Source: a virus
IMG/VR virus record: IMGVR_UViG_3300042865_000103
Coordinates: 1-25,112 of that record
DNA: 25,112 nucleotides
Reading direction: 5' to 3' (one strand)
The translations under genes and the position numbers were made by a program. Shown one piece after another: positions 3,442-21,597 of this stretch (positions are counted from its first letter, which is position 1; every line of letters begins with the position of its first letter). The notes below the pieces were generated by a model. The model worked only from the letters and a program-made list of their open reading frames with translations, was not told the DNA's origin and made no database searches.

Positions 3442-4389
3442 ATGTCAGAAAAAGTAAAAGAAGCAGCAGAAAAAGTTAAAGAAGTAATGGCTACTAAACC
3501 AGCTGAACCAGTTAAAATGAGCCTTAAGCCTGATCTAAGTAAGATTAAGATCAATAGGAGTAAAGGAGTTGTGACTATCAATGGTTACTTTAAGTTACGT
3601 TTAGGTACTTATGAAATCTTGAAACATAATATTGAGCACTGCGTAAATACTATGATCATTGGTCCTACTGGTACAGGTAAGACTGAAGTAATTAGTAACA
3701 TGGCTGACCTGTTTAACTTACCTATTACAATCTTTGATATGGGTACTATGACAGATCCTGTTATGGGTCTAGTAGGTACTCACGTTATCACTGTAAAGGA
3801 TGGTGTGACTCACTCAGAATTTCGTAGATCAAGATTCTCTGATGTAATACAGCAACCAGGTATTGTATTGTTAGATGAGATTAGTAGAGCAGGTGCAATG
3901 AGTAATAACTTATTGTTCCCGTGTCTAGATTTCAGAAAGGAGTTACCAATGGAGTATTCATTCCATGATACAACTCCTGTGCAAGTACACCCCAACTGTG
4001 TGTTCTTCTCAACTGCAAACATGGGTAGCCAGTATACTGGTACTCATAAGCTAGATAGAGCATTACTTGATAGATTTATGTTGGTAGAGGCAGACACTCT
4101 TAAGACAGAAGATATCAAGGAAACATTGACTAGTGAGTTCCCTTCAATTGCAAAGGAAGAGATCAACAAGTTGGTAACTGTATTTGAATCTATTAATCGT
4201 GAGCATGATGAGTTTAAGATTTCATTTAACTTATCACTACGTCACCTTAAGACAATTGCACGCCTAGTGTCTAATGGATTTACAATCTATGATGGCTTCT
4301 TTGTGCTATGCAAGGGACTAGGAGGTAAAGATGGTTTAACAAGTATCAAGAGTATTCTAGATGATACTACAACAGAGGAGGAAGAATAA
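3442..4389 (+). CDS. CobS/MoxR-type AAA+ ATPase
   Basis: A 315-residue AAA+ ATPase of the MoxR/CobS type. Visible motifs are Walker A GPTGTGKT (74-81), Walker B ending in LLDE with D145-E146, the sensor-1 segment STAN with N193, and the arginine-finger region LDRALLDRF just after it. The first 40 residues are Lys-rich and probably flexible. CobS is the AAA+ subunit that works with VWA protein CobT in cobaltochelatase, and CobS-like genes are known in other phages. No chelatase subunit (CobN) is present, so the likely role is ATP-driven remodelling of an unknown partner. It lies directly before a CobT-like VWA gene (2 bases apart), which strongly supports a functional pair. Confidence 0.88.
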   Translation: MSEKVKEAAEKVKEVMATKPAEPVKMSLKPDLSKIKINRSKGVVTINGYFKLRLGTYEILKHNIEHCVNTMIIGPTGTGKTEVISNMADLFNLPITIFDMGTMTDPVMGLVGTHVITVKDGVTHSEFRRSRFSDVIQQPGIVLLDEISRAGAMSNNLLFPCLDFRKELPMEYSFHDTTPVQVHPNCVFFSTANMGSQYTGTHKLDRALLDRFMLVEADTLKTEDIKETLTSEFPSIAKEEINKLVTVFESINREHDEFKISFNLSLRHLKTIARLVSNGFTIYDGFFVLCKGLGGKDGLTSIKSILDDTTTEEEE

Positions 4390-4391
4390 TT

Positions 4392-5816
4392 ATGATTGGT
4401 TATGCGTGGGATAAAATAAAGGGAACTATGTCAGGGTGGGAGAGATCCCACTTTGGCGGTTTTCATAGAATGATTACTGATTATCCATATATCAAATTAG
4501 ATTATGAAATCAAAATTGAACTGGATGATACATTACTTAAAAGTCTTCAGTGGTATACTGGAGAAAAGTTAATTAAGTTATATCTACTTAAGGCTAACAC
4601 TCTTGGTTTAATAACTAAGTTTCATCAGTCAGAGGATGTAGTAGTAAACAAGTGGACTAAATCAGAGACAAAAGTTATCGTTACTCATTTAGATAATGAA
4701 GATATCTTTGATGATATTACTACTCAGCTACCTGAGTTTGCTCCATTGTTTGAACACTACAAGCAAGGTATCTTTAAATCATTCTTAACAAAAGAAATTA
4801 AAGATGATAAGCAAGATGAGGGTGGTGACAGCAGCAATCCTTCTGAGGATAAGCAAGATGATTCACAATCTGATTCACAAGATGGTGATCAAGATGTTCC
4901 TAGCAAAAGCAAAGAATCTAAAACTGTAACAGCGCAAGCTGCTAAGAAAGAGATGAAGGAGAAGCTAACATCTATAAAGGAGCAAGCACCATGGTCTGCT
5001 AAAGATAGCTTGTCTAGTTTCAATGAGACGCCTAAGTTTATGTCACCTAACCCACATGGTTATACAAAGGACTATAAGTTTACTTCACAAGAGATAACTG
5101 ATGCTGAGAATCTAGTCAAGATGTTAGATATAAGCTTTGATCCTAAAGAAGATGTTGTCAAGAGTCTACGTGCTGGTAAGCTTGATGTATGTAAGATAGC
5201 TGAAGTACCTGCGGGTAGCACATCTATATACAAGCAGACAGTAGAAGACCAAGACACTAAACCATTTGGTGTATGCATCCTAGCAGATTTATCAGGTAGT
5301 ATGACATGTAACAGAAGATTAGATAAGCAAAGACATTTATTAAATGTATTGTATCTAGCTATGTCACAAACAGTAGCTGCAGATAAGCTATGGATATATG
5401 GGCACAGTGGTTGTTCACAGCCTGAGATCTATCCTTTCTATACTCCTTATGACGTTGAGTATGCAAAGTACATCAATAATTATGGTCGTATTGAATATGC
5501 TCAAAACTATGATGGTCCTGTCATTGAAGCTATACATAAGAAGATTAGAGAGGTATCTGACGATAGGATAATCTTTATATGTCTATCTGATGGCTCACCT
5601 TCAGGTGATTGCTATGGTAGTGATGAGGATGTAGAAGACATGAAGAAGATCCTTGAGAGAGCTAGACGTGATGAGTTTATCACCGTAGGTATAGGTATTG
5701 AGTACATCGCAGTAGATGGCTTGTATACTTATCACAAGGTAGTAGACGATCTTAATACTCTTGTAAAAGATGTATCTCATATCGTGAACAAAGTTGTAAT
5801 GACTGAGTTCAAATAA
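4392..5816 (+). CDS. CobT-like protein with C-terminal VWA domain
   Basis: A 474-residue protein with the CobT layout. It has an N-terminal helical domain (about 1-130), a very acidic Asp/Ser/Gln-rich low-complexity linker (about 136-175), a Lys-rich stretch, and a C-terminal von Willebrand A domain from about residue 292. The MIDAS metal site is visible: DLSGS with D299, S301 and S303; an N-Y-D-G segment like the N-x-D-G of CobT; and SDGSP with D400. In cobaltochelatase CobT bridges the CobS ATPase ring to the substrate subunit. Here it would link the AAA+ protein encoded just upstream to an unknown target. It is followed by a strong terminator, so it is the last gene of the 1455-5816 operon. 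Confidence 0.85.
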   Translation: MIGYAWDKIKGTMSGWERSHFGGFHRMITDYPYIKLDYEIKIELDDTLLKSLQWYTGEKLIKLYLLKANTLGLITKFHQSEDVVVNKWTKSETKVIVTHLDNEDIFDDITTQLPEFAPLFEHYKQGIFKSFLTKEIKDDKQDEGGDSSNPSEDKQDDSQSDSQDGDQDVPSKSKESKTVTAQAAKKEMKEKLTSIKEQAPWSAKDSLSSFNETPKFMSPNPHGYTKDYKFTSQEITDAENLVKMLDISFDPKEDVVKSLRAGKLDVCKIAEVPAGSTSIYKQTVEDQDTKPFGVCILADLSGSMTCNRRLDKQRHLLNVLYLAMSQTVAADKLWIYGHSGCSQPEIYPFYTPYDVEYAKYINNYGRIEYAQNYDGPVIEAIHKKIREVSDDRIIFICLSDGSPSGDCYGSDEDVEDMKKILERARRDEFITVGIGIEYIAVDGLYTYHKVVDDLNTLVKDVSHIVNKVVMTEFK

Positions 5817-5827
5817 CTGTAGATAGA

Positions 5828-5886
5828 ATAGCTTGTGGTCTTAGTAGCTTTGGTTACTATCATCACAAGCTATATATCTTTTTTTT
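5828..5886 (+). terminator. Rho-independent terminator with long stem-loop
   Basis: A perfect 10-base-pair stem ATAGCTTGTG (5828-5837) / CACAAGCTAT (5864-5873) encloses a second small stem (TAGTA 5842-5846 with TACTA 5855-5859). A run of eight T follows at 5879-5886. It ends the operon finishing at 5816. Confidence 0.85.
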
Positions 5887-5907
5887 ACAATTTAAATCAC
5901 AGCCGTT

Positions 5908-6111
5908 ATGAGTAAAATGGGCAGAGTAGTATTTGACATCATGCAAAAGTTTGATGGTCAAGTACCAGTAGGTTACACACTTAATGATTATTTTAGAGAT
6001 GAAGAAGAAACTAAAAGAGCAGAGAAACAGGAGATTAGCGCAGATAGGAAAGGATCAGTTGATCTTTATGACAAAAGTCAAGAAGAACATGGGTCATCAC
6101 CTAATCCCTGA
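5908..6111 (+). CDS. Small hypothetical protein, 67 aa
   Basis: A hydrophilic 67-residue protein with a short helical N-terminus and a highly charged Glu/Lys/Arg middle. The Ser/Pro-containing tail is probably disordered. It is the first gene after the terminator at 5828-5886, so a promoter should lie within the roughly 20 bases between them or there is read-through; no clear TAnnTTTG box is visible there. No domain is recognised. Confidence 0.55.
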   Translation: MSKMGRVVFDIMQKFDGQVPVGYTLNDYFRDEEETKRAEKQEISADRKGSVDLYDKSQEEHGSSPNP

Positions 6112-6134
6112 TATAACATGGTATTACACCAACA

Positions 6135-6338
6135 ATGAAGAAGGAGATTAAAAACTTCATAAAGTATCTAGTGGTATGGGTATCACAGAACCTATCTATT
6201 CCATTCTGGATGGTAGGGCATGTACATTTATCTGTACATATCTATGAAGATATAACAGAAGTATTAGCGTCATTAGGTATGAACCTAATTGTAGCTACAG
6301 GATTTATTATAGACTATTTAGACCAACGCAAATCATGA
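6135..6338 (+). CDS. Small membrane protein, 67 aa
   Basis: A 67-residue protein with a Lys-rich N-terminus and two hydrophobic stretches (about residues 9-36 and 43-60). It is likely a two-span inner-membrane protein with both ends in the cytoplasm. The ATG follows an ACCAACA leader. Its TGA overlaps the ATG of the next gene in an ATGA. It could be a holin-like or superinfection-related protein given the glucosaminidase further downstream, but nothing in the sequence proves this. Confidence 0.6.
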   Translation: MKKEIKNFIKYLVVWVSQNLSIPFWMVGHVHLSVHIYEDITEVLASLGMNLIVATGFIIDYLDQRKS

Positions 6339-6700
6339 AAAAATTATTATTAATACTATGCTTGTTGATATCATTAATAACAACAGCACAAGAATCAATA
6401 GAAAGTTATGCATTACAAGTAGGACACTGGAATGAGTACCTAGAGGAGTTTGTGTACGATGAAGTAAGAACTTGTGATGTAAAGTTTCTATTACAAGGAG
6501 ATGTCATCATAGCAAATGATGTAGCTAAATCAATTTATTATACTTATGAAACAATTCATAATGATGAATTAGCAGCTACATGGAAAGCCTTTGACGAACA
6601 GAGACGTAACGTTATTGTATCTTTATATTTTGGTAAAGAACTTAGTCTCTTTACTGTAATCTATGATGACGTATGTTATAAGTATTTTTTAACTGACTAA
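6335..6700 (+). CDS. Secreted/periplasmic hypothetical protein, 121 aa
   Basis: The first ~19 residues form a clear Sec signal peptide: MKK, then a Leu/Ile-rich core, then TTAQ with a likely cut after TTA. There is no lipobox Cys. The mature part is about 100 residues, acidic and Tyr-rich, with three Cys. It should act in the periplasm during infection. Translationally coupled (ATGA) to the membrane protein before it. No family recognised. Confidence 0.7.
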   Translation: MKKLLLILCLLISLITTAQESIESYALQVGHWNEYLEEFVYDEVRTCDVKFLLQGDVIIANDVAKSIYYTYETIHNDELAATWKAFDEQRRNVIVSLYFGKELSLFTVIYDDVCYKYFLTD

Positions 6701-6710
6701 AAATAGAGCT

Positions 6711-6932
6711 ATGAAAACAGCAGTAGAATGGTTAGAAGAACAGGTCAATACAGCTAAATGGAAATTTGCTGATAAAACAGATAGAGAAGCTATTATTCAA
6801 CAAGCCAAAGAAATGGAGAAAGAGCAGATAATGACAGCATTTACTCAAGGAGATATATTTGGAGCAGATTTCTTTGACAGAGTAAATAGAACAGCAGAAC
6901 AATACTACAACGAAACCTTTAAATCAGAGTAA
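6711..6932 (+). CDS. Hypothetical protein, 73 aa
   Basis: A soluble, mostly helical 73-residue protein. It has a Trp-containing N-terminal helix, a Lys/Glu-rich helix in the middle and an aromatic-rich C-terminal helix (FFDRV ... EQYYNETF). The last codons form part of a 24-base direct repeat that recurs 87 bases downstream. The ATG at 6711 sits 10 bases after the preceding stop. Function unknown. Confidence 0.65.
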   Translation: MKTAVEWLEEQVNTAKWKFADKTDREAIIQQAKEMEKEQIMTAFTQGDIFGADFFDRVNRTAEQYYNETFKSE

Positions 6933-7023
6933 GATGAAAAAGTATTTATTTGAAGTAGGTCAGCAATTAGCAGACGTATTTTACAATCAAGAAAATATAA
7001 AACCTTTAAATCAGAGTAAGATG
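6913..7023 (+). repeat. 24-base direct repeat, copies 87 bases apart
   Basis: The same 24 bases (AAACCTTTAAATCAGAGTAA followed by GATG) occur at 6913-6936 and 7000-7023. Each copy ends in an ATG followed by a Lys-rich codon run. The first copy spans the end of the 6711-6932 gene and the start of the next. The second places an in-frame ATG 29 codons into that next gene. The 87-base offset is a multiple of three. This looks like a small duplication or recombination scar at a gene junction. Confidence 0.85.
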
Positions 7024-7347
7024 GAAAAAGAATTTGTACCTTATGAGTTAGCTTTAAGAATGAAGCAACTTGGATTTGATGAACCTTGTATGGCATCTAG
7101 AGATATGGGTAATAACCATGGTCTTATACAAGTACCAACTTGGCAATCAGCATTTAGATGGTTTAGAGAGAAGTATGAATTACATTCTACTATTACATCT
7201 ATTAGTCAAGAATCTTGGCAGTGGCATATAACTAAACCTGGAGAATCTTTAGGTAAATTATATGATGAAGATTTTTATACTTATGAAGAGGCAGAACTTG
7301 CTTGTATTGAAAAGTTAATAGAGATTGTTGAATTAAAATTAGAGTAA
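6934..7347 (+). CDS. Hypothetical protein, 137 aa (or 108 aa from ATG 7021)
   Basis: A soluble, Trp/Glu-rich protein with a region around residues 30-110 that probably forms one domain and an acidic C-terminal helix. Two starts are possible in the same frame: 6934 and 7021. Both ATGs are the last three bases of the two copies of a 24-base direct repeat. The 29 residues between them look like an addition, so the ancestral protein may begin at 7021 (MEKEFVPYE). Small phage proteins with a similar MEKEFVPYELA-type opening occur in Bacteroidota phages and hosts; the function is unknown. Confidence 0.65.
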   Translation: MKKYLFEVGQQLADVFYNQENIKPLNQSKMEKEFVPYELALRMKQLGFDEPCMASRDMGNNHGLIQVPTWQSAFRWFREKYELHSTITSISQESWQWHITKPGESLGKLYDEDFYTYEEAELACIEKLIEIVELKLE

Positions 7348-7348
7348 T

Positions 7349-7516
7349 ATGCCAGATATAAGTATGTGTAAGAATGAAAACTGTCTTCAGAAGAAGACAT
7401 GTTATAGATTCACAGCTGTACCAAGTAAGTACCAACAAGCATATGGTGATTTTAAGCCTGATAAAACAGGTAAATGCGAGTATCATATTTATAAACCAAA
7501 GAAAGAAGAAGAATGA
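7349..7516 (+). CDS. Small Cys-containing protein, 55 aa, possible zinc binder
   Basis: A 55-codon frame (ATG 7349-7351, TGA 7514-7516) starts one base after the preceding stop. The product has four Cys: C7 and C12 spaced four residues apart, then C18 followed by Tyr-Arg, and C43 in GKCEY. This is a possible four-Cys zinc site. The rest is Lys-rich with an acidic tail. The end overlaps the next gene in an ATGA. Function unknown. Confidence 0.65.
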   Translation: MPDISMCKNENCLQKKTCYRFTAVPSKYQQAYGDFKPDKTGKCEYHIYKPKKEEE

Positions 7517-7668
7517 AAAAGTTATTGAATTATTTATTTAGTGATAAAATGTATTTTATCCTGGTAGTATTATCAGGTGCGTATTTTGTACACAGAGGCA
7601 ATTACACTATCGCCTTTATGGAGTTAGTACTTATTATTATGTTACTACTTAAGAAAGATAAAGAATGA
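7513..7668 (+). CDS. Small membrane protein, 51 aa
   Basis: A 51-codon frame joined at both ends by ATGA overlaps (7513-7516 and 7665-7668). The product has two hydrophobic stretches (about residues 13-26 and 32-46) between Lys-rich ends, so it is probably a small inner-membrane protein. It is one of four consecutive membrane-type microproteins or lipoproteins leading to the glucosaminidase. A holin-type role is possible but not shown. Confidence 0.65.
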   Translation: MKKLLNYLFSDKMYFILVVLSGAYFVHRGNYTIAFMELVLIIMLLLKKDKE

Positions 7669-7844
7669 AAAAGAAAATTATCATCAGCAGTATAGTAGCA
7701 GTAGTACTTGTAGTAGTATTTGCTATTATAAATGAAAGAAACAAAGCTGAAGCAGCTAGAAAGTCTAATGAAGAGTTCTTAAAAAAGTTAGATAGATACA
7801 GACATCAAGATTCTCTATACTTTGAATATCTTAAAAAACATTAA
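7665..7844 (+). CDS. Small single-span membrane protein, 59 aa
   Basis: A 59-codon frame with an MKKK start, one strong Val/Ile transmembrane helix (about residues 5-22) and a charged helical tail rich in Lys, Glu and Arg. The layout (short N-terminal anchor, periplasmic coiled-coil-like tail) is like an inner-membrane spanin subunit or a small anchor protein. That comparison rests on shape only. It follows an ATGA overlap and is 3 bases from the next gene. Confidence 0.65.
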   Translation: MKKKIIISSIVAVVLVVVFAIINERNKAEAARKSNEEFLKKLDRYRHQDSLYFEYLKKH

Positions 7845-7847
7845 GGC

Positions 7848-8081
7848 ATGAAAAAGTTCAAAGAACATTTTGTAGAAGTTATAATGTTTGGTGTATTCTT
7901 AACTCTGTTTGGATTGTTAATTATAAAATTAGCAATGACATATCAAAAGAAAGAAGTTGTTGTACCTATAGAAGAAGTTGAAGTCATTCAACACAACTAT
8001 GATGATCCTAAAGATCTTGTCAATGATACAACACTAACTTATGATCAACGTAAATATTACGATAACCTATACGATTATTAA
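7848..8081 (+). CDS. Single-span membrane protein with acidic tail, 77 aa
   Basis: A 77-residue protein with a Lys-rich start, one transmembrane helix (about residues 10-31) and a mainly acidic, Tyr/Asp-rich exposed tail. The stop TAA shares its last base with the ATG of the glucosaminidase gene (TAATG), so the two are probably translationally coupled. This suggests a linked envelope function. No family recognised. Confidence 0.7.
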   Translation: MKKFKEHFVEVIMFGVFLTLFGLLIIKLAMTYQKKEVVVPIEEVEVIQHNYDDPKDLVNDTTLTYDQRKYYDNLYDY

Positions 8082-8611
8082 TGAATAGAATTAAGTATGT
8101 AAGTCAAAGGAGATTCTATAGTAGTCTCCTTTTCTTTTCAACAGCAGTAGGAATTATAATGTATATGGTGGGCTCATGTAGCAAACCCGAAGTAAACAAG
8201 ACAGTACAATATGTAGAGTCTGAACCAATCATAATTAAAGAACATCAGTCATTCAGCAAAGAGAATCTGAAATTACTAATTGATGAATTGAACATAAGAT
8301 TTGCAGACATTGTATTTGCACAAGCACTACTAGAGTCAGGAAATTTTAGATCAAGAATTTTTTTAGAGAACAATAATATGTTTGGTATGAAGTGCGCAAG
8401 AAGGAGACCAACAACACATCAAGGTGAGCTCCATGGGCATGCATATTTTCAAACATGGGAAGATTGTGTACTTGATTATGCCTTCTTTCAAACTACATAC
8501 ATGAAACATATTACAAGTAAAAAAGAGTATTTTCAGTATCTTGCAGATAATTATGCAGAAGATCCTGAATACACTGATAAGCTTAAAATTATTATTCACA
8601 ACAACAATTGA
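8081..8611 (+). CDS. Lipoprotein glucosaminidase (GH73-like peptidoglycan hydrolase)
   Basis: A 176-residue glucosaminidase-type lysin that would cut glycan strands of peptidoglycan. Residues 1-33 form a lipoprotein signal: basic Arg-Arg region, hydrophobic core, and lipobox VGSC with C33 as the acylated residue. The catalytic domain spans about 60-175. It carries the family motif QALLESG with E85 as likely catalytic acid, then a NNNMFGMK segment and an aromatic TWEDC stretch, as in FlgJ/GH73-like enzymes of Bacteroidota. Lipid anchoring would hold the enzyme at a membrane. Its position after a run of small membrane proteins suggests a lysis or cell-entry role. A terminator-like hairpin lies within codons 9-18. 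Confidence 0.85.
   Translation: MNRIKYVSQRRFYSSLLFFSTAVGIIMYMVGSCSKPEVNKTVQYVESEPIIIKEHQSFSKENLKLLIDELNIRFADIVFAQALLESGNFRSRIFLENNNMFGMKCARRRPTTHQGELHGHAYFQTWEDCVLDYAFFQTTYMKHITSKKEYFQYLADNYAEDPEYTDKLKIIIHNNN
8106..8137 (+). terminator. Terminator-like hairpin inside the glucosaminidase gene
   Basis: AAAGGAGA (8106-8113) pairs perfectly with TCTCCTTT (8125-8132), followed by TTCTTTTC. It lies inside the signal-peptide codons of the gene starting at 8081. It could be a partial terminator or attenuator limiting lysin expression, or a chance result of the codons used. Confidence 0.4.
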
Positions 8612-8614
8612 TCT

Positions 8615-8622
8615 TATCTTTG
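8615..8622 (+). promoter_or_regulatory. Possible promoter -7 box (TATCTTTG)
   Basis: TATCTTTG matches the TAnnTTTG consensus of Bacteroidota promoters exactly and lies in the 32-base gap between the glucosaminidase stop and the ATG at 8644. A start near 8629 would give a leader of about 15 bases. No TTG sits at the expected -33 distance, so the call is tentative. Confidence 0.4.
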
Positions 8623-9023: not shown

Positions 9024-9024
9024 T

Positions 9025-9378: not shown

Positions 9379-9851
9379 AAGCAGAAGAAATTATTGCAGA
9401 TTTTACAAATGATTTCTATAATAGATTTGGAGTATACGTTGTAGTAAACTATTCATTAGATAAGCCTACGGCTGAGACACCTAAAATACCAATGCAATGT
9501 TTGCTAGATGAGTTCAATGCATTCTTAAAAGTAGATTATCCAGATGGAATGAACTATAAGAATAGAGACAGAAGAACCATTGTAAATGTAGCAGAGTTAG
9601 GTATTAGAACTAAATACAGAATAGCAGAATTAGTAACTTACAGATATTTATTTTACTATGTATGCTATGCTATAGGACACAGCTATAACCAGGTAAGCCA
9701 ATTCATAAAAGGAAAAAGAGATCATTCTATTGTAATACATGGTAGAAAAATGGTAACTCAAAGACTAGAAGTTAAAGATCGCGAAATGACTAATCTATTC
9801 AATAGAGTTATTCCATATTTAAACAACAAGTATAATCTTAAAATACAATGA
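9351..9851 (+). CDS. DnaA domain IV-like DNA-binding protein
   Basis: A 166-residue protein whose C-terminal half resembles the DNA-binding domain (domain IV) of the bacterial initiator DnaA. From about residue 80, helices rich in Arg and Tyr are followed by a helix-turn-helix ending in GKRDHSIVIH (121-130). This corresponds to the conserved GGRDHSTVLHA signature of DnaA that contacts DnaA boxes. There is no AAA+ ATPase region, so it cannot be a complete initiator. It may recognise phage origin sequences, recruit replication proteins, or compete with host DnaA. It overlaps the SF2 helicase gene by 4 bases, which links it to replication. The N-terminal 80 residues are unrecognised. Confidence 0.75.
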   Translation: MVDISQEWIEAEEIIADFTNDFYNRFGVYVVVNYSLDKPTAETPKIPMQCLLDEFNAFLKVDYPDGMNYKNRDRRTIVNVAELGIRTKYRIAELVTYRYLFYYVCYAIGHSYNQVSQFIKGKRDHSIVIHGRKMVTQRLEVKDREMTNLFNRVIPYLNNKYNLKIQ

Positions 9852-10951
9852 GTACATCAAAAAGTAAAATACAAAAAGATGCATTAAGTAAGATACTTCC
9901 ATTAAGTAAGGCAGGCGTTGAGATATCAATGGGTGTAGGTAAGACTTTATTAGGTCTTAGACATATGGATAGCTTGCTAGCATTTAGTGAAGGAGATATA
10001 AAATTTTTAGTTGTAGCACCAAAGGTATCAATATATGACAGTTGGAAATCAGATGCTAAGAAGCATAATCTAGATCATCTATTAAATCATATCACCTTTA
10101 CAACATACAGATCGTTGGAGAAGTGTAGTCATGACTATGAAGCAATCTATTTAGATGAGTGTCATAGTTTGAAATACAATCATACTACATATCTAAGAAG
10201 AGCTGAGCACAAAAACATTACCATAATAGGATTAACTGGTACATATCCAAAATATAGATCAGGAGAAAAAGGAGAGATGTGTAATCTATTCTGCCCTAAA
10301 GTATATGTATATAAGACAGATGATGCTATTGAAGCTAACATACTAAATGATTATAGAATCTATGTTCATATGGTAGATTTAGATGATGCTAGAACTATAC
10401 GCGTAACAAGTGCTAAGGGTAGCTGGCTAATATCTGAACAACAGAACTATGAATACTGGACTAATAAGATCAATAGTAGTTTTAAACAAAAAGATCTGCA
10501 GATACTACGTGTAATGCGTATGAAAGCTATGATGGGTTACAAAAGCAAAGAAGAAAAAGTATTAGAGCTTCTTGCTAGACGTAAGACTAAAACAATACTG
10601 TTTGCTAATACACAAGAACAAGCAGATAGATTAGCACCACATAGTTATCATAGCAGTAATCCTAAATCAGCAGAGAATCTTGAGCTGTTCAAGAATAATG
10701 AGATAGAACTATTATCAGCAGTAGAACAACTAAGCGAAGGTGTAAACATACCTAATCTTAGATCAGGGATAATCATGCATGCTTATTCTAACAATAGGAA
10801 GACATCTCAGAAGTTAGGAAGGATGTTAAGACTTAATCCTGATGATACAGCTGGTATACACATTCTATGCTATCGTGATACAGTTGATGAGCAATGGGTT
10901 AGGAGTGCCATTGAAAGTTTTGATAAAGATAAAATAGTATGGCTGAACTAA
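9848..10951 (+). CDS. SF2 helicase (DEAD/DEAH/SNF2-like)
   Basis: A compact 367-residue superfamily 2 helicase or translocase. Motifs in order are Walker A SMGVGKT (27-33), DECH box D103-E104-C105-H106, motif III-like GLTGTYP, a second RecA domain with a TxxQxxR-like segment, and motif VI-like QKLGRMLRLN near the end. It is smaller than typical SNF2 or RecG proteins and has no visible accessory domain. It uses ATP to move along or unwind DNA, likely in phage replication or recombination. Similar helicases are part of the replication block of crAss-like phages. The DnaA-like gene overlaps its start and the next gene overlaps its end by 13 bases. Confidence 0.85.
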   Translation: MSTSKSKIQKDALSKILPLSKAGVEISMGVGKTLLGLRHMDSLLAFSEGDIKFLVVAPKVSIYDSWKSDAKKHNLDHLLNHITFTTYRSLEKCSHDYEAIYLDECHSLKYNHTTYLRRAEHKNITIIGLTGTYPKYRSGEKGEMCNLFCPKVYVYKTDDAIEANILNDYRIYVHMVDLDDARTIRVTSAKGSWLISEQQNYEYWTNKINSSFKQKDLQILRVMRMKAMMGYKSKEEKVLELLARRKTKTILFANTQEQADRLAPHSYHSSNPKSAENLELFKNNEIELLSAVEQLSEGVNIPNLRSGIIMHAYSNNRKTSQKLGRMLRLNPDDTAGIHILCYRDTVDEQWVRSAIESFDKDKIVWLN

Positions 10952-11160
10952 TATTGTATAAGACAAAAGGATGTGATACTACGTTCTTAACGGCATGTAT
11001 TATAAAATTTTGTGAGCATAAACCTGATCAAGCAGAACAGTGTGCTACTATAGTTAATGGTAGAGGCAGCTATGCTATTAAATCAGGAGATCTTGATACA
11101 ATAGAAGAGATGGCGTTTTTATTTGAAAACGTAGGATTAGTAACCAAAATAGTAGAATGA
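10939..11160 (+). CDS. Small protein, possible ClpS/L7-L12 C-terminal-like fold, 73 aa
   Basis: A 73-residue protein with a Lys/Thr-rich first strand, a helix with two Cys, an AEQCA helix followed by Val-Asn-Gly-Arg-Gly, a strand, a Glu-rich helix and a last strand ending in GLVTKIVE. This beta-alpha-alpha-beta-alpha-beta order and the (A)(x)xCAxIV...G pattern resemble ClpS adaptors and the L7/L12 C-terminal domain. If ClpS-like, it could redirect host Clp protease. This is a fold-level guess, not an identification. It overlaps the helicase gene by 13 bases and the next gene in an ATGA. Confidence 0.6.
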   Translation: MAELILYKTKGCDTTFLTACIIKFCEHKPDQAEQCATIVNGRGSYAIKSGDLDTIEEMAFLFENVGLVTKIVE

Positions 11161-11886: not shown

Positions 11887-12278
11887 AACAAAAAAAAGGT
11901 GTATTAAACATTAAGCTTACTAAAGAGAATGGTAGGCTTATACATAAAGATGCAAGTGATGCGTCTCTATACAAAATATTTATGGAAGCATTAGAAGAAG
12001 GACAGACAGTGGATGTCTTTTTTGATGCACATGTAGATAATGGCACGTATGCACAGATATCTAAACTTAAGGTATCTATACGTGAATTAGCAAATGAATC
12101 AGGAGATTCTTTTGAAGAAATGCAGAATATAGTTAAAGAGAAAGCAGGGCTATGCTGGGAAGGTCATTGCAAATCATTTGGTGATTGCAGCATAGAAGAG
12201 CTTAATCTTGCGATTCAGGCTGCTGTTGAGATTGGGGATTATCTAAATCTGAATCTACGTCAGGTGTTTGGAAAGTAG
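11883..12278 (+). CDS. Hypothetical protein, 131 aa
   Basis: A 131-residue soluble protein. An N-terminal strand-rich part with LTKENGRL is followed by a helical C-terminal half that contains a VSIRELANESG helix and a C-x-x-x-x-C pair (CWEGHC region). Last gene of the 9351-12278 plus-strand run. Its final 77 bases overlap, in the opposite direction, the end of the minus-strand gene. No terminator is seen between the convergent genes. A recombination-accessory role is conceivable but I see no diagnostic motif. Confidence 0.65.
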   Translation: MKQKKGVLNIKLTKENGRLIHKDASDASLYKIFMEALEEGQTVDVFFDAHVDNGTYAQISKLKVSIRELANESGDSFEEMQNIVKEKAGLCWEGHCKSFGDCSIEELNLAIQAAVEIGDYLNLNLRQVFGK

Positions 12279-12549
12279 CAGGATCAACAATCTCAAATTT
12301 ATTTTCAGCTCTAACTACAGATTCAATTTCTTTAATCAATACAGTCAGAGTTAGCAAGTGATACTCAAAAGAATCTTTTGGCTCACGTGTAGCAATGTCA
12401 GCAAATATCTGAGCAATCTCAGCATGACTTCTTGTAGAGATGTGATCTGATAAAAGCTGTGACAGCCTTACATAAAAGCCACCAGAAATTTTGATGGATA
12501 CTATTTCCTCTACAGGGAAGATTTCTAATGGTGGTAATTTATCTGACAT
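12202..12549 (-). CDS. Only minus-strand gene, hypothetical protein 115 aa
   Basis: A 115-residue soluble protein on the minus strand. The open frame extends upstream to 12651, but the ATG at 12549 is preferred: a TATATTTG box lies at 12572-12565, and a longer product would run through the ung start. The N-terminal 80 residues look like a compact alpha/beta domain (ISGGFYVRLSQLL, then helices). The last ~20 are acidic and Gln/Ser/Pro-rich, likely disordered. Without this gene, 12279-12580 would be empty. The 3' end overlaps the plus-strand gene ending at 12278 by 77 bases. Small lone genes opposite to the main direction are often regulatory, but no HTH is visible. Confidence 0.7.
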   Translation of the reverse strand: MSDKLPPLEIFPVEEIVSIKISGGFYVRLSQLLSDHISTRSHAEIAQIFADIATREPKDSFEYHLLTLTVLIKEIESVVRAENKFEIVDPATFQTPDVDSDLDNPQSQQQPESQD

Positions 12550-12564
12550 ATAAAAAAGTTTAAA

Positions 12565-12572
12565 CAAATATA
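12565..12572 (-). promoter_or_regulatory. Promoter -7 box (TATATTTG) for the minus-strand gene
   Basis: Read on the minus strand, positions 12572-12565 are TATATTTG, an exact match to TAnnTTTG. The expected start near 12558 gives a leader of about 9 bases before the ATG at 12549. The -33 region is T-rich without a clear TTTG. Confidence 0.5.
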
Positions 12573-12580
12573 CAATATTT

Positions 12581-13285
12581 ATGAATGAGAAGTTAAAAGA
12601 AGTACAGTTAAAATTACATGATGCAATTAAGCCATCAGGATGGGGAAACAAACTTAAGATGTTTGTGTTGAGCGATGACTTTTATAAGATCCTTGAAAGA
12701 TTAATGATTGAATCTAATGCAGGTAAGAAGTTTACGCCAACAATTAAACATTTGTTTAAAGCTTTTGAAGAATGTCCTTATGATGAACTTAAGGTAGTTA
12801 TAGTAGGGCAAGATCCATATCCTAAAGAAGGAGTAGCTGACGGTATAGCTTTCAGTTGTAGTAAAACAGAGCATCCATCTCAGGTACAGCCAAGTTTAAG
12901 ATCAATACATAAAGCTTTAGATGCTGAAGGAATAGAACACTTTCATACATATAATCTAAAGGACTGGGCTAATCAAGGTATATTAATGCTAAATACAGCT
13001 CTTACTACTACAATAGGTACACCAGGAGCACATGCAGCACTATGGGAACCTTTTATGAAATATTTATTTGAAGTGTTGAATGAACAAAAGGGATTAGTTT
13101 ATATCTTTATGGGTAAGGTTGCGCAATCATGGCGTAGTCATATCAATCAAGAAGACAACTATATTTTTACATGTTCTCACCCAGCATCTGCCGCCTATTC
13201 ACAAGGTGAGTGGTACAGTAATGGTGTCTTCAAGAATACAGATAAGATTATCAAAGAAAATTATAACTACAACATAAAATGGTAA
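12581..13285 (+). CDS. ung: Uracil-DNA glycosylase, family 1
   Basis: A 234-residue enzyme that removes uracil from DNA by cutting its N-glycosidic bond. Family 1 motifs are complete: VGQDPY (75-80) with catalytic D78, F92 that stacks on uracil, N138 in LMLNTA for base recognition, and the HPAS loop with catalytic H200. The residue after GQDPY is Pro rather than the usual His, and the HPSPLS loop is altered to HPASAAYSQ. Presence of Ung implies that the phage uses ordinary thymine DNA and needs protection from deaminated cytosine or dUTP. It starts a plus-strand replication run and overlaps the next gene by 7 bases. Confidence 0.93.
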   Translation: MNEKLKEVQLKLHDAIKPSGWGNKLKMFVLSDDFYKILERLMIESNAGKKFTPTIKHLFKAFEECPYDELKVVIVGQDPYPKEGVADGIAFSCSKTEHPSQVQPSLRSIHKALDAEGIEHFHTYNLKDWANQGILMLNTALTTTIGTPGAHAALWEPFMKYLFEVLNEQKGLVYIFMGKVAQSWRSHINQEDNYIFTCSHPASAAYSQGEWYSNGVFKNTDKIIKENYNYNIKW

Positions 13286-16463: not shown

Positions 16464-16466
16464 ACA

Positions 16467-16481
16467 AACAATTTAAAACAA
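16467..16481 (+). promoter_or_regulatory. A-rich leader motif AACAATTTAAAACAA before a gene start
   Basis: The same 15 bases occur at 23-37, just before the ATG at 44, and here end on the first base of the ATG at 16481. Related ACATTTTAAACAATG precedes 23661 and ACAATTTAAATC precedes 5908. This fits an A/T-rich, Shine-Dalgarno-free translation start as used in Bacteroidota. Confidence 0.4.
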
Positions 16482-17263: not shown

Positions 17264-17279
17264 TAATTAACTAATATTG

Positions 17280-17310
17280 AAGGGGGATATGATGTCCCCC
17301 TTTTTTATTT
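17280..17310 (+). terminator. Rho-independent terminator
   Basis: Stem AAGGGGGA (17280-17287) / TCCCCCTT (17295-17302) with a 7-base loop, followed by a T-run overlapping the stem end. It lies after the candidate SSB gene and before the primase gene. Confidence 0.88.
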
Positions 17311-17317
17311 CCATACT

Positions 17318-18331
17318 ATGCTAAAGTCAAACCCCGCAGTATTTTTTATTGAAGATGTTCCAAGTAACTGGATATTTGAAAGTTATTTGAACTTAAATGA
17401 AAAGCTTACAGGTCAGTCTATCAAGATACATTCCATATTTAAAGCAGAAAAAACTCCTTCAATGTGCATCTATTATTCTGATGCAGATAAGATGTACAAG
17501 TACAAAGATTTCTCTACAGATAAATCAGGTAATGGTGCAGGATTAGTATCAGATATGTTTAACATATCATATGCTAGTGCATGTAGTAAAATTATGGATG
17601 ATTATAATCTATATCTTAGTAAAGGAGATTTATCAAATGATGACCAAATAAGAAAGCATATAATTCCTACACCAAAATATAAGATTACAGAATTTGTAAC
17701 GCGTGGTTGGAATAATATTGATGCAGCATATTGGTTGCAATTTGGTATAGGATCTGATGTATTAAAGCACTATGGAGTAGTTCCTCTACAGGAGTATACA
17801 ATGTGCAGACAATATTCAGATGGTAAAGAGGAAGTAATAAAGATAGCTAGACTAAATGTATATGGTTACTTTAATAAACAAGGAGATCTCTGCAAGGTAT
17901 ATCAGCCTATGCAGAAGAATAAGAAGTTCATTAAGGTAAATGATTATATACAAGGATCAGATCAATTAACAGAAACAAATAAGTATCTAGTCATATGCAG
18001 TTCATTAAAAGATGTAATGGCATTGAAAGCAATGAAGTTCAACAACATTGATGCAGTAGCACCAGATAGCGAGAACTCTAGAATTCCAAAAGAAATAATG
18101 AGTGCGTACCTTGAAAGATATACTACAGTATGTACAATGTTTGATGATGATGTAGCAGGTATGAAATCTATGCAGAAATACAAAGATGACTACGGTATAG
18201 AATCAATTCATCTACAGATGAGTAAAGATCTATCAGATTCAATTAGAGATTATGGAATGAGCAATGTAAAGATTGTATTACATCCTATATTAAAGAAAGT
18301 ATTAACACCAAAAAGTTTGAAGCATGAGTAG
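17318..18331 (+). CDS. DnaG-type primase with Toprim domain, zinc ligands not seen
   Basis: A 337-residue primase-like protein that should make RNA primers for replication. The N-terminal part aligns by pattern with the CHC2 zinc domain of DnaG (a KAEKTPSM segment followed by YKYKDF and GNGAGLVSDMF), but the zinc-binding Cys/His residues are replaced, for example SIFK for CPFH. The Toprim domain follows: FDDDVAG with metal-binding D276 and D278, and CSSLKDVMAL with D232. The usual Glu of the E-G-x-x-D motif is S228. It is short compared with bacterial DnaG (~600) and has no clear helicase-binding domain. It starts 8 bases after the terminator at 17280-17310. Confidence 0.75.
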   Translation: MLKSNPAVFFIEDVPSNWIFESYLNLNEKLTGQSIKIHSIFKAEKTPSMCIYYSDADKMYKYKDFSTDKSGNGAGLVSDMFNISYASACSKIMDDYNLYLSKGDLSNDDQIRKHIIPTPKYKITEFVTRGWNNIDAAYWLQFGIGSDVLKHYGVVPLQEYTMCRQYSDGKEEVIKIARLNVYGYFNKQGDLCKVYQPMQKNKKFIKVNDYIQGSDQLTETNKYLVICSSLKDVMALKAMKFNNIDAVAPDSENSRIPKEIMSAYLERYTTVCTMFDDDVAGMKSMQKYKDDYGIESIHLQMSKDLSDSIRDYGMSNVKIVLHPILKKVLTPKSLKHE

Positions 18332-18764
18332 TTATTTTGACAGTTGGATCTATAACAATATAGAATTTACTGAAGACATGATACCTGAAGGAGCTGTAGG
18401 TTTTGTATATGAAATGACAGCAGTTATAGATGGAAAATCTCGTATATATATTGGAAAGAAAAACTTTTACTCAGATGTTAAAACAAAGCTGGGTAAAAAA
18501 GTATTAGCTCAGCAAACAGATAAACGCCTTAAGACATACAAGCGTGTAAGAAAAACTGTTTATCAGAAGTATTACAGTAGCAATGAAGTGCTTAAGAAAG
18601 CGCATAAAGATGGAGTTAAAATACGTAGAAAAATACTGATGATATGTTACAGTCCTACAGAGCTAACTTATCAAGAAGCTAAGCATCTATTCTGTAATGA
18701 TGTATTAGATTATGATATGTATTTGAACTCCAATATATTAGGTAAATTTTATAAATCAAAGTAG
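18324..18764 (+). CDS. GIY-YIG-like nuclease
   Basis: A 146-residue protein resembling small GIY-YIG endonucleases of large phages (Seg-like). It has GFVYEM (26-31) and IYIGKKNF (41-48) standing for the GIY and YIG strands, a YYSSNEVL segment (83-90), a Lys/Arg-rich helix in between, and a late E118 as candidate catalytic Glu followed by an Asn-rich YLNSNI. The family includes homing endonucleases and repair nucleases such as those cutting branched DNA. It overlaps the primase gene by 8 bases, which suggests it has been integrated into the replication operon. Confidence 0.68.
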   Translation: MSSYFDSWIYNNIEFTEDMIPEGAVGFVYEMTAVIDGKSRIYIGKKNFYSDVKTKLGKKVLAQQTDKRLKTYKRVRKTVYQKYYSSNEVLKKAHKDGVKIRRKILMICYSPTELTYQEAKHLFCNDVLDYDMYLNSNILGKFYKSK

Positions 18765-18765
18765 T

Positions 18766-18927
18766 ATGGATCCACTAAGAGTAATTGAATTACGTGCACA
18801 GTATCTTATATTATCTGAAATAGAAGAAATGTTTGTAGCAAAATCAAAACACAAAGTAGCAAAATATGTAGACAGAAAAATGATTGATATTCTTAAAGAA
18901 TTAAATATTAAATCTAAAGTAAGATGA
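18766..18927 (+). CDS. Small hypothetical protein, 53 aa
   Basis: A 53-codon frame (ATG 18766-18768, TGA 18925-18927) that starts one base after the preceding stop and ends in an ATGA overlap. The product is one or two charged amphipathic helices rich in Lys, Glu and Val, with a basic end. No domain recognised; coupling on both sides supports it as a gene. Confidence 0.6.
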   Translation: MDPLRVIELRAQYLILSEIEEMFVAKSKHKVAKYVDRKMIDILKELNIKSKVR

Positions 18928-19214
18928 AGATAACACATGAAAATTTATTGGAAAACGGATGGGATTGTATTGATGCAAATAATCAAAAGTACATAAGTAA
19001 ATTTCATTTAAACGTAATTCTGTTTTTAAGCAAAAATTATGGTATAGATGATAATTATATGATACAGTTATTATTTCCATCTACTGATTTTGCAAGTGAG
19101 GCAGTTAAAGTTAATATAAATTGTATCAGCATTAAAGATTTACAAACACTTGAACATTTAGTTTATAAAGCAAGTGCTGTAAGTTCAATGAAAAGATTAT
19201 TGTTAAACTATTAA
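18924..19214 (+). CDS. Hypothetical protein, 96 aa
   Basis: A soluble, mixed alpha/beta protein of 96 residues with a hydrophobic strand and helix around residues 28-36, no signal peptide. It opens with an ATGA overlap and ends 5 bases before the VWA/metallopeptidase gene, so it is probably part of that operon. The function is unknown; an accessory role in the VWA-AAA+ module cannot be excluded. Confidence 0.65.
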   Translation: MKITHENLLENGWDCIDANNQKYISKFHLNVILFLSKNYGIDDNYMIQLLFPSTDFASEAVKVNINCISIKDLQTLEHLVYKASAVSSMKRLLLNY

Positions 19215-19219
19215 TACAT

Positions 19220-20407
19220 ATGAACATACATCAGGAAAGCTTAGCTAAAGCTACTAAAGAACTGATGTTTAGTGAACCTTTTTACGGTCTATTTCTAGTA
19301 TCATTAAATAAACAATGGGATGAAAAGGTATCTACTGCATGTGTAGGAGTATCAGGTATCTCTTTTGGTTTAAAGATAAGCCCAACATTTTGGGAGAAGT
19401 TGACACCTTTACAAAAGAAAGGTATACTTAAGCATGAGTTAATGCATATTGCCTTATTCCATCTAACAGATTATAAACATCTAACAGATCATAAGTTAGC
19501 AAATATTGCAATGGATATAGAGATCAACCAGTACATTGATCCTACGTGGCTGCCAGAAGGCGCTATGGGACTTTCAACATTTCCTGAATTAAAATTAGAG
19601 GAAAAGAAAGGTACTAAATATTATTATGATAAGCTCAAGGAGTTGAAGGATGAGGTACAAGAGTGCCTTAAGAAAGCTATTGAGAATGGAGATACATCAG
19701 TTACATTACCTGATGGTACAGTAGTTCAGTTATCAGAGCATGATTGGGATGAAATGGATTCTTTAGATGAAGGTTCACAACGTGTTATTAGAGATCAGGT
19801 ATCAGGTATACTTAAGAATATTGCAGAAACTGTAGAGAAATCACACGGTAGTGTACCAGGAGAATTTAAAGATATACTTCAAAAGCTACTAGAAATACCT
19901 GAACCTAAGTTTGATTGGAAATCACATGTCAGAAGATTTGCTGGTAAATCTATTAAGGTTTATACAAAAAAGTCCAGAAGGAAGTTTAGCAAAAGATATG
20001 AAGACAATCCAGGTCTTAAAATCAAACAAAAGAAACACATATTAGTAGGTATAGATACATCAGGATCTGTAAAGAAAGAAGAGCTCCAAGAATTTCTATA
20101 CGAGATACATCACCTAAATAAAACAGGTAATGATGTTACTATAGTACAGTGTGATACAGCTATATCTCATGTAGGTAAATACAAACCAGGTGAAGATTAT
20201 GCTATACATGGTAGAGGAGGAACAGATTTTCAACCTGTAATAGACTATTATAACGAGCACTTCAATGAGATAAGCTGTTTAATATACTTTACAGATGGTG
20301 AATGTAGTCCTCCAATTAATGCAAAAGGAAACATCCTATGGGTGTTAAGTAGTGAAAGTGAAATGAATGATGATCTCCCTGGAGAAAAAATTAAATTAGA
20401 ATTATGA
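19220..20407 (+). CDS. VWA protein with HExxH metallopeptidase-like N-terminal domain
   Basis: A 395-residue protein of the bacterial VWA-like/DUF2201 type. The N-terminal domain has an HExxH zinc motif, HELMH (72-76), with a DIEINQYID segment soon after, as in these proteins. A central helical linker follows. The C-terminal VWA domain carries a full MIDAS: D279, S281 and S283 in DTSGS, T335 in GGTDF, and D359 in FTDGE. In bacteria such proteins pair with MoxR-type ATPases. It may bind or process a client that the AAA+ ring remodels. It overlaps the AAA+ gene by 4 bases, which strongly supports a complex. Peptidase activity is not proven. Confidence 0.85.
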   Translation: MNIHQESLAKATKELMFSEPFYGLFLVSLNKQWDEKVSTACVGVSGISFGLKISPTFWEKLTPLQKKGILKHELMHIALFHLTDYKHLTDHKLANIAMDIEINQYIDPTWLPEGAMGLSTFPELKLEEKKGTKYYYDKLKELKDEVQECLKKAIENGDTSVTLPDGTVVQLSEHDWDEMDSLDEGSQRVIRDQVSGILKNIAETVEKSHGSVPGEFKDILQKLLEIPEPKFDWKSHVRRFAGKSIKVYTKKSRRKFSKRYEDNPGLKIKQKKHILVGIDTSGSVKKEELQEFLYEIHHLNKTGNDVTIVQCDTAISHVGKYKPGEDYAIHGRGGTDFQPVIDYYNEHFNEISCLIYFTDGECSPPINAKGNILWVLSSESEMNDDLPGEKIKLEL

Positions 20408-21597
20408 AAAGTAATAGCGTAAGATTAGACAGTAATGAATTAAAAAGTTTTTTAATGCACATGATTAGCAATAATCGTCATATACAAGCGGAGGGTAAGA
20501 ACCCTGTAGCAGTAGAGATTATTGGTGAATCAGGTTTAGGTAAAACAAGTAGTGTAATTCAGTTAGCAACAGATGAAAAGTTAAACTTTGTAAAGCTGAA
20601 TTTAGCTCAGATAGAAGAACTAGGTGACCTTGTAGGCTTTCCTATTAGACAATTTAAGATGCTTAAAGAAGCTGAATCTGGATTAAAAGTACATCAGTGG
20701 ATTGATGAGCATGCAGTAGAAGAATACAGTAGACAAGGATATAAATTCACTGGTCAAAAAAGAATGTCATACTGTCCACCAGAATGGATTGCAGATAAAA
20801 TAGGTGGTGGTATCTTATTACTAGATGACTGGAACAGAGCAGATGTAAGATTTATTCAAGCAGTAATGGAACTAGTAGACCGTCAAGAATACATATCATG
20901 GAAGCTGCCTAAAGACTGGCATATACTATTAACAGCTAACCCTGACGATGGTAACTATATGGTAAATAGTATTGATGTTGCACAAAGAACCAGATTTGTT
21001 AGTGTTGAATTTAAGTTTGACGTAGATAGATGGGCAGAGTGGGCAGAAGCTAATAACATTGATGGCAGATGTATCAACTTCTTATTAATGCATCCAGAGG
21101 TAGTTAATGAAAGAGTTAATCCAAGATCCATTACTACATTCTTTAATGCAATTAGTTCTATCCCAAAGTTTGAAGAACAACTAGGATTAATCCAACAAAT
21201 AGGAGAAGGTTCTGTAGGTACAGAAGTAGCAAGTTTGTTTACGCAGTTTATTGCAAACAAATTAGATAAGCTTATCACACCTAAACGAATGCTATTAGAA
21301 GGAGATACTAAAACAGTTATTGAAGAAATCACCAATATAACAAATGATTATAGCGGATACAGAGCTGACATAGCAAGTCTATTGACTAGTCGTATAACAA
21401 ACTTTGGTTTATACTATGCAGAGAAGAATCCTATTGATCAAAAAGTTATAGATAGAATTACAGAAATAATTAAACACGAAGCAGCATTTAATTATGATCT
21501 TAAGTATATCATTGCCAAGAAGTTAGTAGGAGGTAACAAAGCTAAGTTTCAAAAGTTAGTTCTTGTACCTGAAGTTAATGATCTTATAACAAAGTAA
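20404..21597 (+). CDS. MoxR-type AAA+ ATPase, partner of the metallopeptidase-like VWA protein
   Basis: A 397-residue AAA+ ATPase. Walker A is GESGLGKT (41-48). Walker B is GGILLLDDWNRAD with D141-D142, so the second acidic residue is Asp instead of the usual Glu. Sensor 1 is LLTANPDDGNY. A long insertion with Trp and Tyr lies between Walker A and B. The C-terminal 150 residues form a helical domain not shared with the CobS-like protein at 3442. It would form a ring that uses ATP to remodel proteins together with the VWA protein whose gene overlaps it. The next gene starts 2 bases later. Confidence 0.85.
   Translation: MKSNSVRLDSNELKSFLMHMISNNRHIQAEGKNPVAVEIIGESGLGKTSSVIQLATDEKLNFVKLNLAQIEELGDLVGFPIRQFKMLKEAESGLKVHQWIDEHAVEEYSRQGYKFTGQKRMSYCPPEWIADKIGGGILLLDDWNRADVRFIQAVMELVDRQEYISWKLPKDWHILLTANPDDGNYMVNSIDVAQRTRFVSVEFKFDVDRWAEWAEANNIDGRCINFLLMHPEVVNERVNPRSITTFFNAISSIPKFEEQLGLIQQIGEGSVGTEVASLFTQFIANKLDKLITPKRMLLEGDTKTVIEEITNITNDYSGYRADIASLLTSRITNFGLYYAEKNPIDQKVIDRITEIIKHEAAFNYDLKYIIAKKLVGGNKAKFQKLVLVPEVNDLITK

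Follow-up and report, generated by a model that had tools for sequence, protein, structure and literature searches.

The window, that is, the whole 25,112-nucleotide stretch of IMG/VR virus record IMGVR_UViG_3300042865_000103 analysed here, encodes two gene pairs in which a MoxR-like AAA+ ATPase adjoins a protein with a VWA domain. Pair 1 (3442-5816) consists of the ATPase A1 followed by its VWA partner V1, and pair 2 (19220-21597) of V2, a zincin-like metallopeptidase fused to a VWA domain, followed by the ATPase A2; an uncharacterised third gene, X (21600-22622), lies directly 3' of A2, and all five genes are on the plus strand. A first-pass annotation, made from the sequence alone, had described two complete pairs at these positions, about 14 kb apart in an early phage region, with ATPases of different length and Walker B motifs of DE and DD type. 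The open reading frames (ORFs) are found there with intact motifs, 13.4 kb separate the pairs, the ATPases measure 315 and 397 amino acids, the DE (A1) and DD (A2) readings are correct, and both functional-looking machines lie in or beside a replication-phase gene block. Two features are new here: the linkage of X, which the first-pass annotation does not list, to pair 2 in this phage clade and, as judged from alignments, a clade-specific Walker B Asp-Asp change in the pair-2 ATPases.

Pair 1 resembles NorQD and midasin

A1 (315 amino acids, 3442-4389, plus strand) carries the motifs of a MoxR-like AAA+ ATPase: Walker A GPTGTGKT, Walker B LLDE with its glutamate, sensor-1 TAN and an arginine-finger-like DRF. 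It matches Pfam AAA_5 with 42.9 bits (cut-off 22) and phrog_249 with 6.6e-22, and LDE[IL]SRA is kept in 15/15 distinct A1 rows. V1 (474 amino acids, 4392-5816, plus strand) has a metal-ion-dependent adhesion site (MIDAS) at D299, S301 and S303, together with NYDG and SDG; DxSGSM, N[YR]DG and SDG recur in 17/17 distinct rows, some of which are copies cut by locus ends. Its PHROG matches are phrog_1576 (1.4e-8) and phrog_17276 (2.4e-6), and Pfam CobT_C reaches 13.8 bits, below its cut-off of 21. The C-terminal part of the V1 model aligns with the Rea1 MIDAS domain at Z 20.3 (202 residues, root-mean-square deviation 2.6) and with the NorD VWA domain at Z 19.7, where VWA domains in general reach about 16; the predicted fold and metal site together suggest a VWA domain with MIDAS. 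Model quality is a mean predicted local distance difference test (pLDDT) of 75.9 and a predicted template modelling score (pTM) of 0.70, with residues 1-15, 140-176 and 253-286 unreliable, the last of these being the low-confidence segment that precedes the VWA domain.

Against solved (PDB) sequences, the A1 profile finds the AAA domains of midasin at 1.6e-35, NorQ/CbbQ at 1.8e-7 and CobS at 2.7e-7. Midasin (Rea1/Mdn1) has six AAA units and is a single giant eukaryotic chain that combines AAA and MIDAS parts, whereas pair 1 consists of two short proteins from separate ORFs. Like pair 1, NorQ/NorD is a two-gene AAA+/VWA machine, in which a finger of the VWA protein enters the pore of the AAA+ partner, its linker being twisted and stretched as ATP is hydrolysed (Kahle et al. 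2026, PMC13036017; this and the other PMC sources are cited for the excerpts available). NorQD is described there as a metal-insertion factor for a respiratory enzyme (PMC13036017), whereas no such client was seen here. By profile and modelled fold, pair 1 appears NorQD/midasin-like, and by database label it is CobS/CobT-like.

Taken at face value, those labels would make pair 1 an auxiliary gene set of a cobalt or porphyrin chelatase, and V1 had been called CobT-like in the first-pass annotation. The PHROG names agree (phrog_249 'porphyrin biosynthesis', phrog_17276 CobT), there is distant profile similarity, including a weak CobT match among PDB sequences (0.005), and CobS in the PDB is about equal to NorQ/CbbQ for A1. 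However, midasin matches A1 far better than CobS does; the CobS equivalog TIGR01650 scores 31 against a cut-off of 559, with the gas-vesicle protein GvpN higher at 45; CobT_C stays below its cut-off; and no CobN-sized ORF occurs in the window, the largest being 474 amino acids. The chelatase reading was rejected on the CobS equivalog score and we consider it very improbable; the CobT-like name stands as a PHROG label, and the predicted fold is close to Rea1-MIDAS and NorD.

V1 follows A1 directly in 12/12 close-family loci, and no gene besides A1 and V1 is common to all 12; the antisense ORF clusters at these loci are shadows of A1 and V1. A GTDB genome scan for a cellular origin of V1 with alignment A6 matched 84 stretches, none of them confirmed by tblastn, which is weak evidence that V1 may be virus-restricted. 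The V1 genes of G027 and G028 had appeared to be pseudogenes with 'two TAA' inside, a suggestion rejected because the ORF is open over 450 amino acids in L120 (G and L numbers are our handles for records and loci). Just before A1, a gene for 182 amino acids (2873-3421) has a distant profile relative just after V1 in L195 (11035-11673), which is related to L194:13985-14551; no wider link was found, and the gene may be an occasional partner of pair 1. In G038, a TROVE-domain protein (L122:75-1664; Pfam 40.7 bits, cut-off 23) lies close to pair 1, and a further AAA ATPase is encoded at L122:13034-14488.

Pair 2 is a known phage kind with an altered Walker B motif

V2 (395 amino acids, 19220-20407, plus strand) matches both Pfam DUF2201_N (67.7 bits, cut-off 23.2) and DUF2201 (56.4 bits, cut-off 26.4), and phrog_1314 at 8.7e-66. 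It combines the zincin motif HELMH with the VWA motifs DTSGS, GRGGT and TDG, and HExxH, DxSxS, GRGGT and TDG are present in 50/50 distinct rows. The predicted VWA fold aligns at Z of about 12 over about 126 residues (mean pLDDT 83.2, pTM 0.58). These domains and sites place V2 in the DUF2201 zincin-VWA family as a putative peptidase, in line with the earlier description of a metallopeptidase-like VWA protein placed first and an ATPase second. Relatives of V2 occur in 278/50,697 phage records, of which 60, spread down the ranking, were listed. The family is labelled 'HNH endonuclease' via phrog_1314 and is so named in 22 of the 60 rows shown (of 278); for the V2 of the window, the motifs and Pfam domains contradict this label.

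A2 (397 amino acids, 20404-21597, plus strand), whose first 4 bases are also the last 4 of V2, matches phrog_1297 at 4e-35 and midasin AAA domains, by profile, at 8.9e-9, with Pfam AAA_3 at 14.9 bits below its cut-off of 27. Its Walker B reads LLDD rather than ending in Asp-Glu, and the remaining MoxR motifs are present. Asp replaces the Walker B Glu in 52/52 distinct A2 homologues of this clade; Glu occupies that site in the 11 other pair-2 ATPases aligned (Glu-Glu in Moorella; RaK2 falls outside the alignment). Because the other motifs are present and the phrog_1297 match is strong, A2 is described, despite Asp-Asp, as a divergent relative whose mode of action may still be that of a MoxR ATPase. 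V2 is followed by A2 on one strand in 79/79 loci, a count that includes overlapping contigs and is therefore not fully independent.

Pair 2 is of a kind already known in phages, namely N4 gp24/gp25, AR9 g028/g029 and a jumbo-phage pair. N4, AR9 and RaK2 encode the same DUF2201-type VWA protein as V2, at 24-28% identity, adjoining an ATPase gene. The ATPases of N4 and AR9 are related to A2 (A4 profile: 3.1e-6 and 7.3e-11, respectively); RaK2_00053/00054 gives no A4 match, but its ATPase is named gp24-like in its record. Unlike the window, all three phages place the ATPase gene first and give no X match, and N4 and AR9 retain the Walker B Glu that A2 lacks. The ATPase is likewise first in S-TIM5, Moorella and PA5oct; the VWA protein precedes it in Alteromonas AD45, and in Vibrio Va1 the pair-2 genes lie far apart. 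In the available excerpts, N4-like phages are given a core of 14 genes that includes gp24 and gp25, which are called middle transcripts (PMC4193335), and both are listed as shared, gp25 by one of three methods (PMC7650795). Iyer et al. (2021) describe a MoxR-vWA-metallopeptidase pair in group 2.2 jumbo phages with the same domain architecture as pair 2 and propose a role in virion assembly; their text as available reports no third gene (PMC7824862), whereas pair 2 of the window has X beside it and lies in a replication block. No paper on MoxR/VWA pairs in crAss-like phages was among the matches listed in the open-licence literature.

Gene X is linked to pair 2

X (21600-22622, plus strand) has the motif PRFKLK..KAD followed by a conserved LxxMLxSxDxxNxxLAxEIMAN, and gives no significant match in Pfam, PHROG or NCBIfam. 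It is divergent, with 15-22% identity to the X of the window in 14/16 other members. A BRCT-like N-terminus, seen by eye, is no more than a lead: Pfam BRCT matched 1/17 members (E 0.034) and a PDB profile search gave no BRCT protein.

A profile grown from X finds 116 copies in 87 loci, which overlap and are not independent. Of 52 distinct A2 proteins, 48 have X encoded no more than about 4 kb away, as one copy in 27, two in 18 and three in 3. The four A2 genes without X (L004, L067, L070 and L081) are on contigs cut on at least one side; downstream of A2, L070 and L081 extend for 2.3 and 10 kb with no X. Searched across 25 hand-chosen whole records, the profile gives 14 matches in 9, exactly those with the crAss-like pair-2 type (G001, G003, G011, G013, G019, G022, G025, G027 and G038; about 854 kb in all). 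All 14 lie within about 5 kb of V2. Because seven of these nine records (not G003 and G022) contributed rows to the profile, a match beside V2 is there by construction; the informative part is that X matches nothing elsewhere in the nine records and nothing in the other 16, which include seven named phages with the other pair-2 type, G036/G039 and pair-1-only records.

X could be a selfish or lineage-specific passenger carried by linkage with pair 2, a reading that its fast evolution and the GIY-YIG endonuclease often present in the same stretch would fit. Two observations speak against it: X stands beside pair 2 in every one of the nine pair-2 records tested, before or after it and with as many as three copies, and a syntenic relative, G042, lacks both X and pair 2. 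We regard a passenger as possible, although not the likelier state of affairs.

The two ATPases are distant homologues

The pairs had been called unrelated, and this does not hold: A1 and A2 are both MoxR-like and are distant homologues because their profiles align over the P-loop domain (E 3.9e-5, probability 70.6), where plain BLASTP returns scattered weak pieces (best E 0.024). In a tree of 41 ATPases, the 18 pair-1 ATPases (100/100), the 10 crAss-like pair-2 ATPases (100/99) and 12 other pair-2 ATPases, including those of N4, AR9, S-TIM5 and RaK2 (85/82), each occupy one side of a branch. Long branches include P23-45, CobS, Moorella, AR9 and N4, and the tree program warns on long-branch joins, among them the join of the pair-1 and crAss-like pair-2 groups. 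Between V1 and V2, profile similarity extends little beyond the DxSGS motif.

That two MoxR/VWA pairs share one genome might suggest that one pair was copied from the other and is now decayed or redundant. The separate ATPase branches (subject to the long-branch warning at their join), the intact motifs of both pairs, the different VWA architectures with opposite gene order and the V1/V2 similarity that stops at DxSGS all oppose this. Pair 1 as a decayed copy was rejected on the ATPase tree, and we give the idea next to no credence. The absence of a recent duplication, as first proposed, is borne out; the ATPases are neither unrelated nor duplicates.

Both pairs come and go among related phages

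Profile searches for co-occurrence, a check that the first-pass annotation had suggested along with gene order and phylogeny, find all four combinations among related phages: both pairs present, pair 1 alone, pair 2 alone, and neither. In 40 records searched, V2-type matches occur in 38 (divergent in G036 and G039) and strong pair-1 matches in eight (G001, G027, G028, where A1 is cut by the record end, G036, G037, G038, G039 and BS162P1). The G records, being metagenome contigs, may lack parts of their genomes. Several absences are credible because synteny is conserved around them, namely three of pair 1 where pair 2 is kept and one of pair 2 where pair 1 is kept. G011, G013 and G022 keep the g1455-HNH-SNF2 block without A1-V1 and carry pair 2, and the A1 and V1 profiles match nowhere in these whole records. 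Conversely, the 121-kb crAss-like G042 keeps the SNF2-UDG-DnaB-primase-PDDEXK block, with pair 1 upstream and only about 0.55 kb between primase and PD-(D/E)XK gene; the V2 and A2 profiles match nowhere in whole G042, nor in G041, G040 or G037 (controls G001 and G011 matched), and the X profile matches nowhere in whole G042. The nearest relatives of the window that were checked (73-86% in A2; L005, L006, L009 and L012) end before the pair-1 region and so do not tell the pair-1 status of close kin. Separate roles for the two pairs, as first suggested, fit this pattern because the pairs are present or absent independently in syntenic relatives.

The place of pair 1 varies: before g1455 in L194 and L195, between HNH and SNF2 in the window, and after SNF2 in L087 and G027. 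The tree rejects a single entry of pair 1 into these phages: in approximately unbiased (AU) tests, constraining crAss-like pair-1 ATPases to one clade is rejected (p 0.011 for the window, G027 and L087; 1.3e-8 with G038), the groups having been named after the tree had been seen. The A1 of the window groups (100/99) with those of G036/G039, which are large phage contigs; BLASTP finds no further window gene at the loci of these contigs. Pair 1 is a two-gene accessory and appears to move as a cassette between otherwise dissimilar phages. Several such machines per phage are a recurring pattern because L193:9812-15103 holds a tandem A1-V1-A1-V1 in one phage record and G036 (207 kb; loci L124 and L125) holds A1-V1-V1 plus two further divergent VWA/ATPase clusters, with clusters of 2-3 VWA genes and one ATPase.

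Pair 2 is bordered by a GIY-YIG endonuclease in many loci, and in G042 an HNH-like ORF (L271:3780-4190; Pfam HNH 21.1 bits, cut-off 21.4) fills the interval that lacks pair 2. Homing-type endonucleases may move the pair-2 cassette.

The genomic setting is crAss-like

The window is nearly identical to bases 1-25,112 of IMG/VR contig 3300042861_000451 (G001; 44,433 bases, incomplete), two overlapping parts differing at 1 of 14,386 and at 6 of 14,709 bases. It contains a crAss-type replication set of SNF2, uracil-DNA glycosylase (UDG), DnaB, AAA_24 ATPase, primase and PD-(D/E)XK genes, as described for such phages in the available part of PMC7886860. Past the window, G001 encodes a DNA polymerase that has no Pfam match; its phage relatives are named DNA polymerase, some of them family B, with a Nitrincola phage ranked first, and it is 34% identical to that of crassvirus phi14:2. 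Beyond it, the minus strand carries giant ORFs, one of 1,873 amino acids and one of at least 3,247. A 1,100-amino-acid piece of the longer one matches six records: a Kehishuvirus RNA polymerase, two records each of cr11_1 and cr110_1, which we take to be crAss-like gut phages, and one faecal phage. Because of the replication set in the window and the giant RNA-polymerase-type ORF on G001, the window is, by gene content, a fragment of a crAss-like phage.

The neighbours of the pairs named here are all on the plus strand. Near pair 1 are an HNH endonuclease that serves as a backbone marker (1963-2382) and the SNF2-like helicase (9848-10951), which pair 1 precedes or follows depending on the relative. 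Upstream of pair 2, a DnaG/Toprim-like primase (17318-18331; Pfam, PHROG) is followed by a GIY-YIG (SegE-like) endonuclease (18324-18764; Pfam), whose profile has matches in 31 loci, some overlapping; directly 3' of X is a PD-(D/E)XK exonuclease-like gene (22606-23649; Pfam, PHROG), which with the primase marks the replication block.

Three smaller ORFs of the window deserve mention. A ClpS-like ORF (10939-11160) reaches 20.5 bits for Pfam ClpS (cut-off 23), and a clear ClpS (62.9 bits) is encoded in G038 (L122:14712-15008), within a few kb of each of its two pairs. An endolysin-like gene with a hydrophobic N-terminus (8081-8611; phrog_21890, 3.3e-14) stands among replication-phase genes. Before the UDG gene, a minus-strand ORF (12202-12651) has a counterpart in the same place and opposite orientation in G027 (L120:12604-12927; 30% over 103 amino acids, E 1e-12, a single comparison), which has a relative at L087:8224-8601 and points to a conserved counter-oriented gene.

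Possible roles of the two machines

We think it somewhat probable that pair 2 and X form a three-part remodelling module of early or middle infection, and that pair 1 is a separate, mobile NorQD-like machine. V2, A2 and X (19220-22622) would form a complex in which the A2 ring pulls on or twists V2, by analogy with NorQD, while the V2 MIDAS holds a client that the zincin domain either cuts or only grips; X would be a dedicated adaptor that may select the client, or itself a client of V2-A2. A1-V1 (3442-5816) would be self-contained and act in the manner of NorQD, or of a midasin whose AAA and MIDAS parts are on separate proteins. NorQD-like pulling is suggested for pair 1 by the V1 fold near NorD and Rea1-MIDAS and by the A1 profile; for pair 2 the analogy is looser. 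The more specific proposal of V2-A2-X as a new three-component machine is tentative and falls somewhat short of an even chance: a MoxR-like motor with the Asp-Asp Walker B would drive the zincin-VWA arm, a dedicated, fast-evolving X of variable copy number would select or present the client, and the cassette would be gained and lost as one in the crAss-like replication block, alongside an independently mobile pair 1.

An early or middle time for pair 2 is suggested by its position in the replication block, by the middle transcription of N4 gp24/gp25 and by AR9, in which g028/g029 directly follow an annotated early promoter. V2-A2-X would then be produced in the early or middle phase, with replication or transcription proteins as its targets, and would not serve late capsid assembly. 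N4-like, AR9-like and these crAss-like phages share a virion RNA polymerase as well as pair 2. As a strict-rule client of pair 2, this polymerase was rejected, as crAss001, phi14:2 and phiKZ, which we take to be virion-RNA-polymerase phages, have no pair-2 match; RaK2, phage G and PA5oct, which are not known as such phages, do match the pair-2 VWA protein, which also counts against it.

Several observations weigh against an early or middle role, and a rival reading takes pair 2 for a chaperone-protease of virion assembly or maturation, modelled on the tail machine of an archaeal virus. That machine is the MoxR/VWA pair of the Acidianus two-tailed virus, presumably the proteins p618 and p892. 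It is virus-encoded like the pairs of the window and serves tail assembly, but in an archaeal virus and with no metallopeptidase (cited in PMC7824862, in the part available). The virion assembly proposal is published (Iyer et al., PMC7824862); the PA5oct pair-2 ATPase is annotated with electrospray ionization tandem mass spectrometry (ESI-MS/MS), like the structural proteins of that phage; the S-TIM5 pair is near genes called virion structural; excerpts place virion genes of roseophage RPP1 near gp24/gp25 homologues, as a mid-phase second structural module (PMC4193335), and discuss a MoxR-like ATPase with purified Staphylococcus jumbo phage proteins (PMC10638138); and HExxH is intact in 50/50 V2. 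On the other side stand the place of the module among the replication genes of these crAss-like phages, separate from the giant RNA-polymerase-type genes, which are on the opposite strand, the early promoter of AR9 with 41/43 AR9 virion proteins of late class, and N4 middle transcription (PMC4193335, as excerpted). We judge virion assembly unlikely, if a serious contender.

Further points count against the module and unit as drawn here. With DD in its Walker B, A2 could be a weak ATPase or an inactive one, and V1 and A2 are divergent, both lying under their Pfam cut-offs. X is missing from 7/7 named phages of the other pair-2 type and from G036/G039, which speaks against a general partner; the VWA gene is weak or far from the ATPase in L196 and Mel-JY01, which speaks against a strict A1-V1 unit; and crAss001 and phi14:2 match neither pair, which speaks against a conserved need.

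A role in host takeover or anti-defence, with the machines remodelling or cutting host proteins, is rather improbable, and pair 1 would be the likelier candidate for it. Pair 1 is patchy and repeatedly acquired, has tandem or extra copies in L193 and G036, and changes place at the edge of the replication block, which counts in favour of such a role. Against it, a search of defence families gave only weak generic ATPase matches (best DolB, 1.2e-6). Among the matches listed in the open-licence literature, none reports an experimentally tested client of a MoxR/VWA machine in a bacterial phage.

MoxR/VWA machines are widespread in phages. The Asp-Asp Walker B of A2 raises the question of how a MoxR motor would work without the usual catalytic glutamate, and syntenic crAss-like genomes with and without V2-A2-X or A1-V1, together with an X tied to only one of the two machines, would offer a direct route to their clients.

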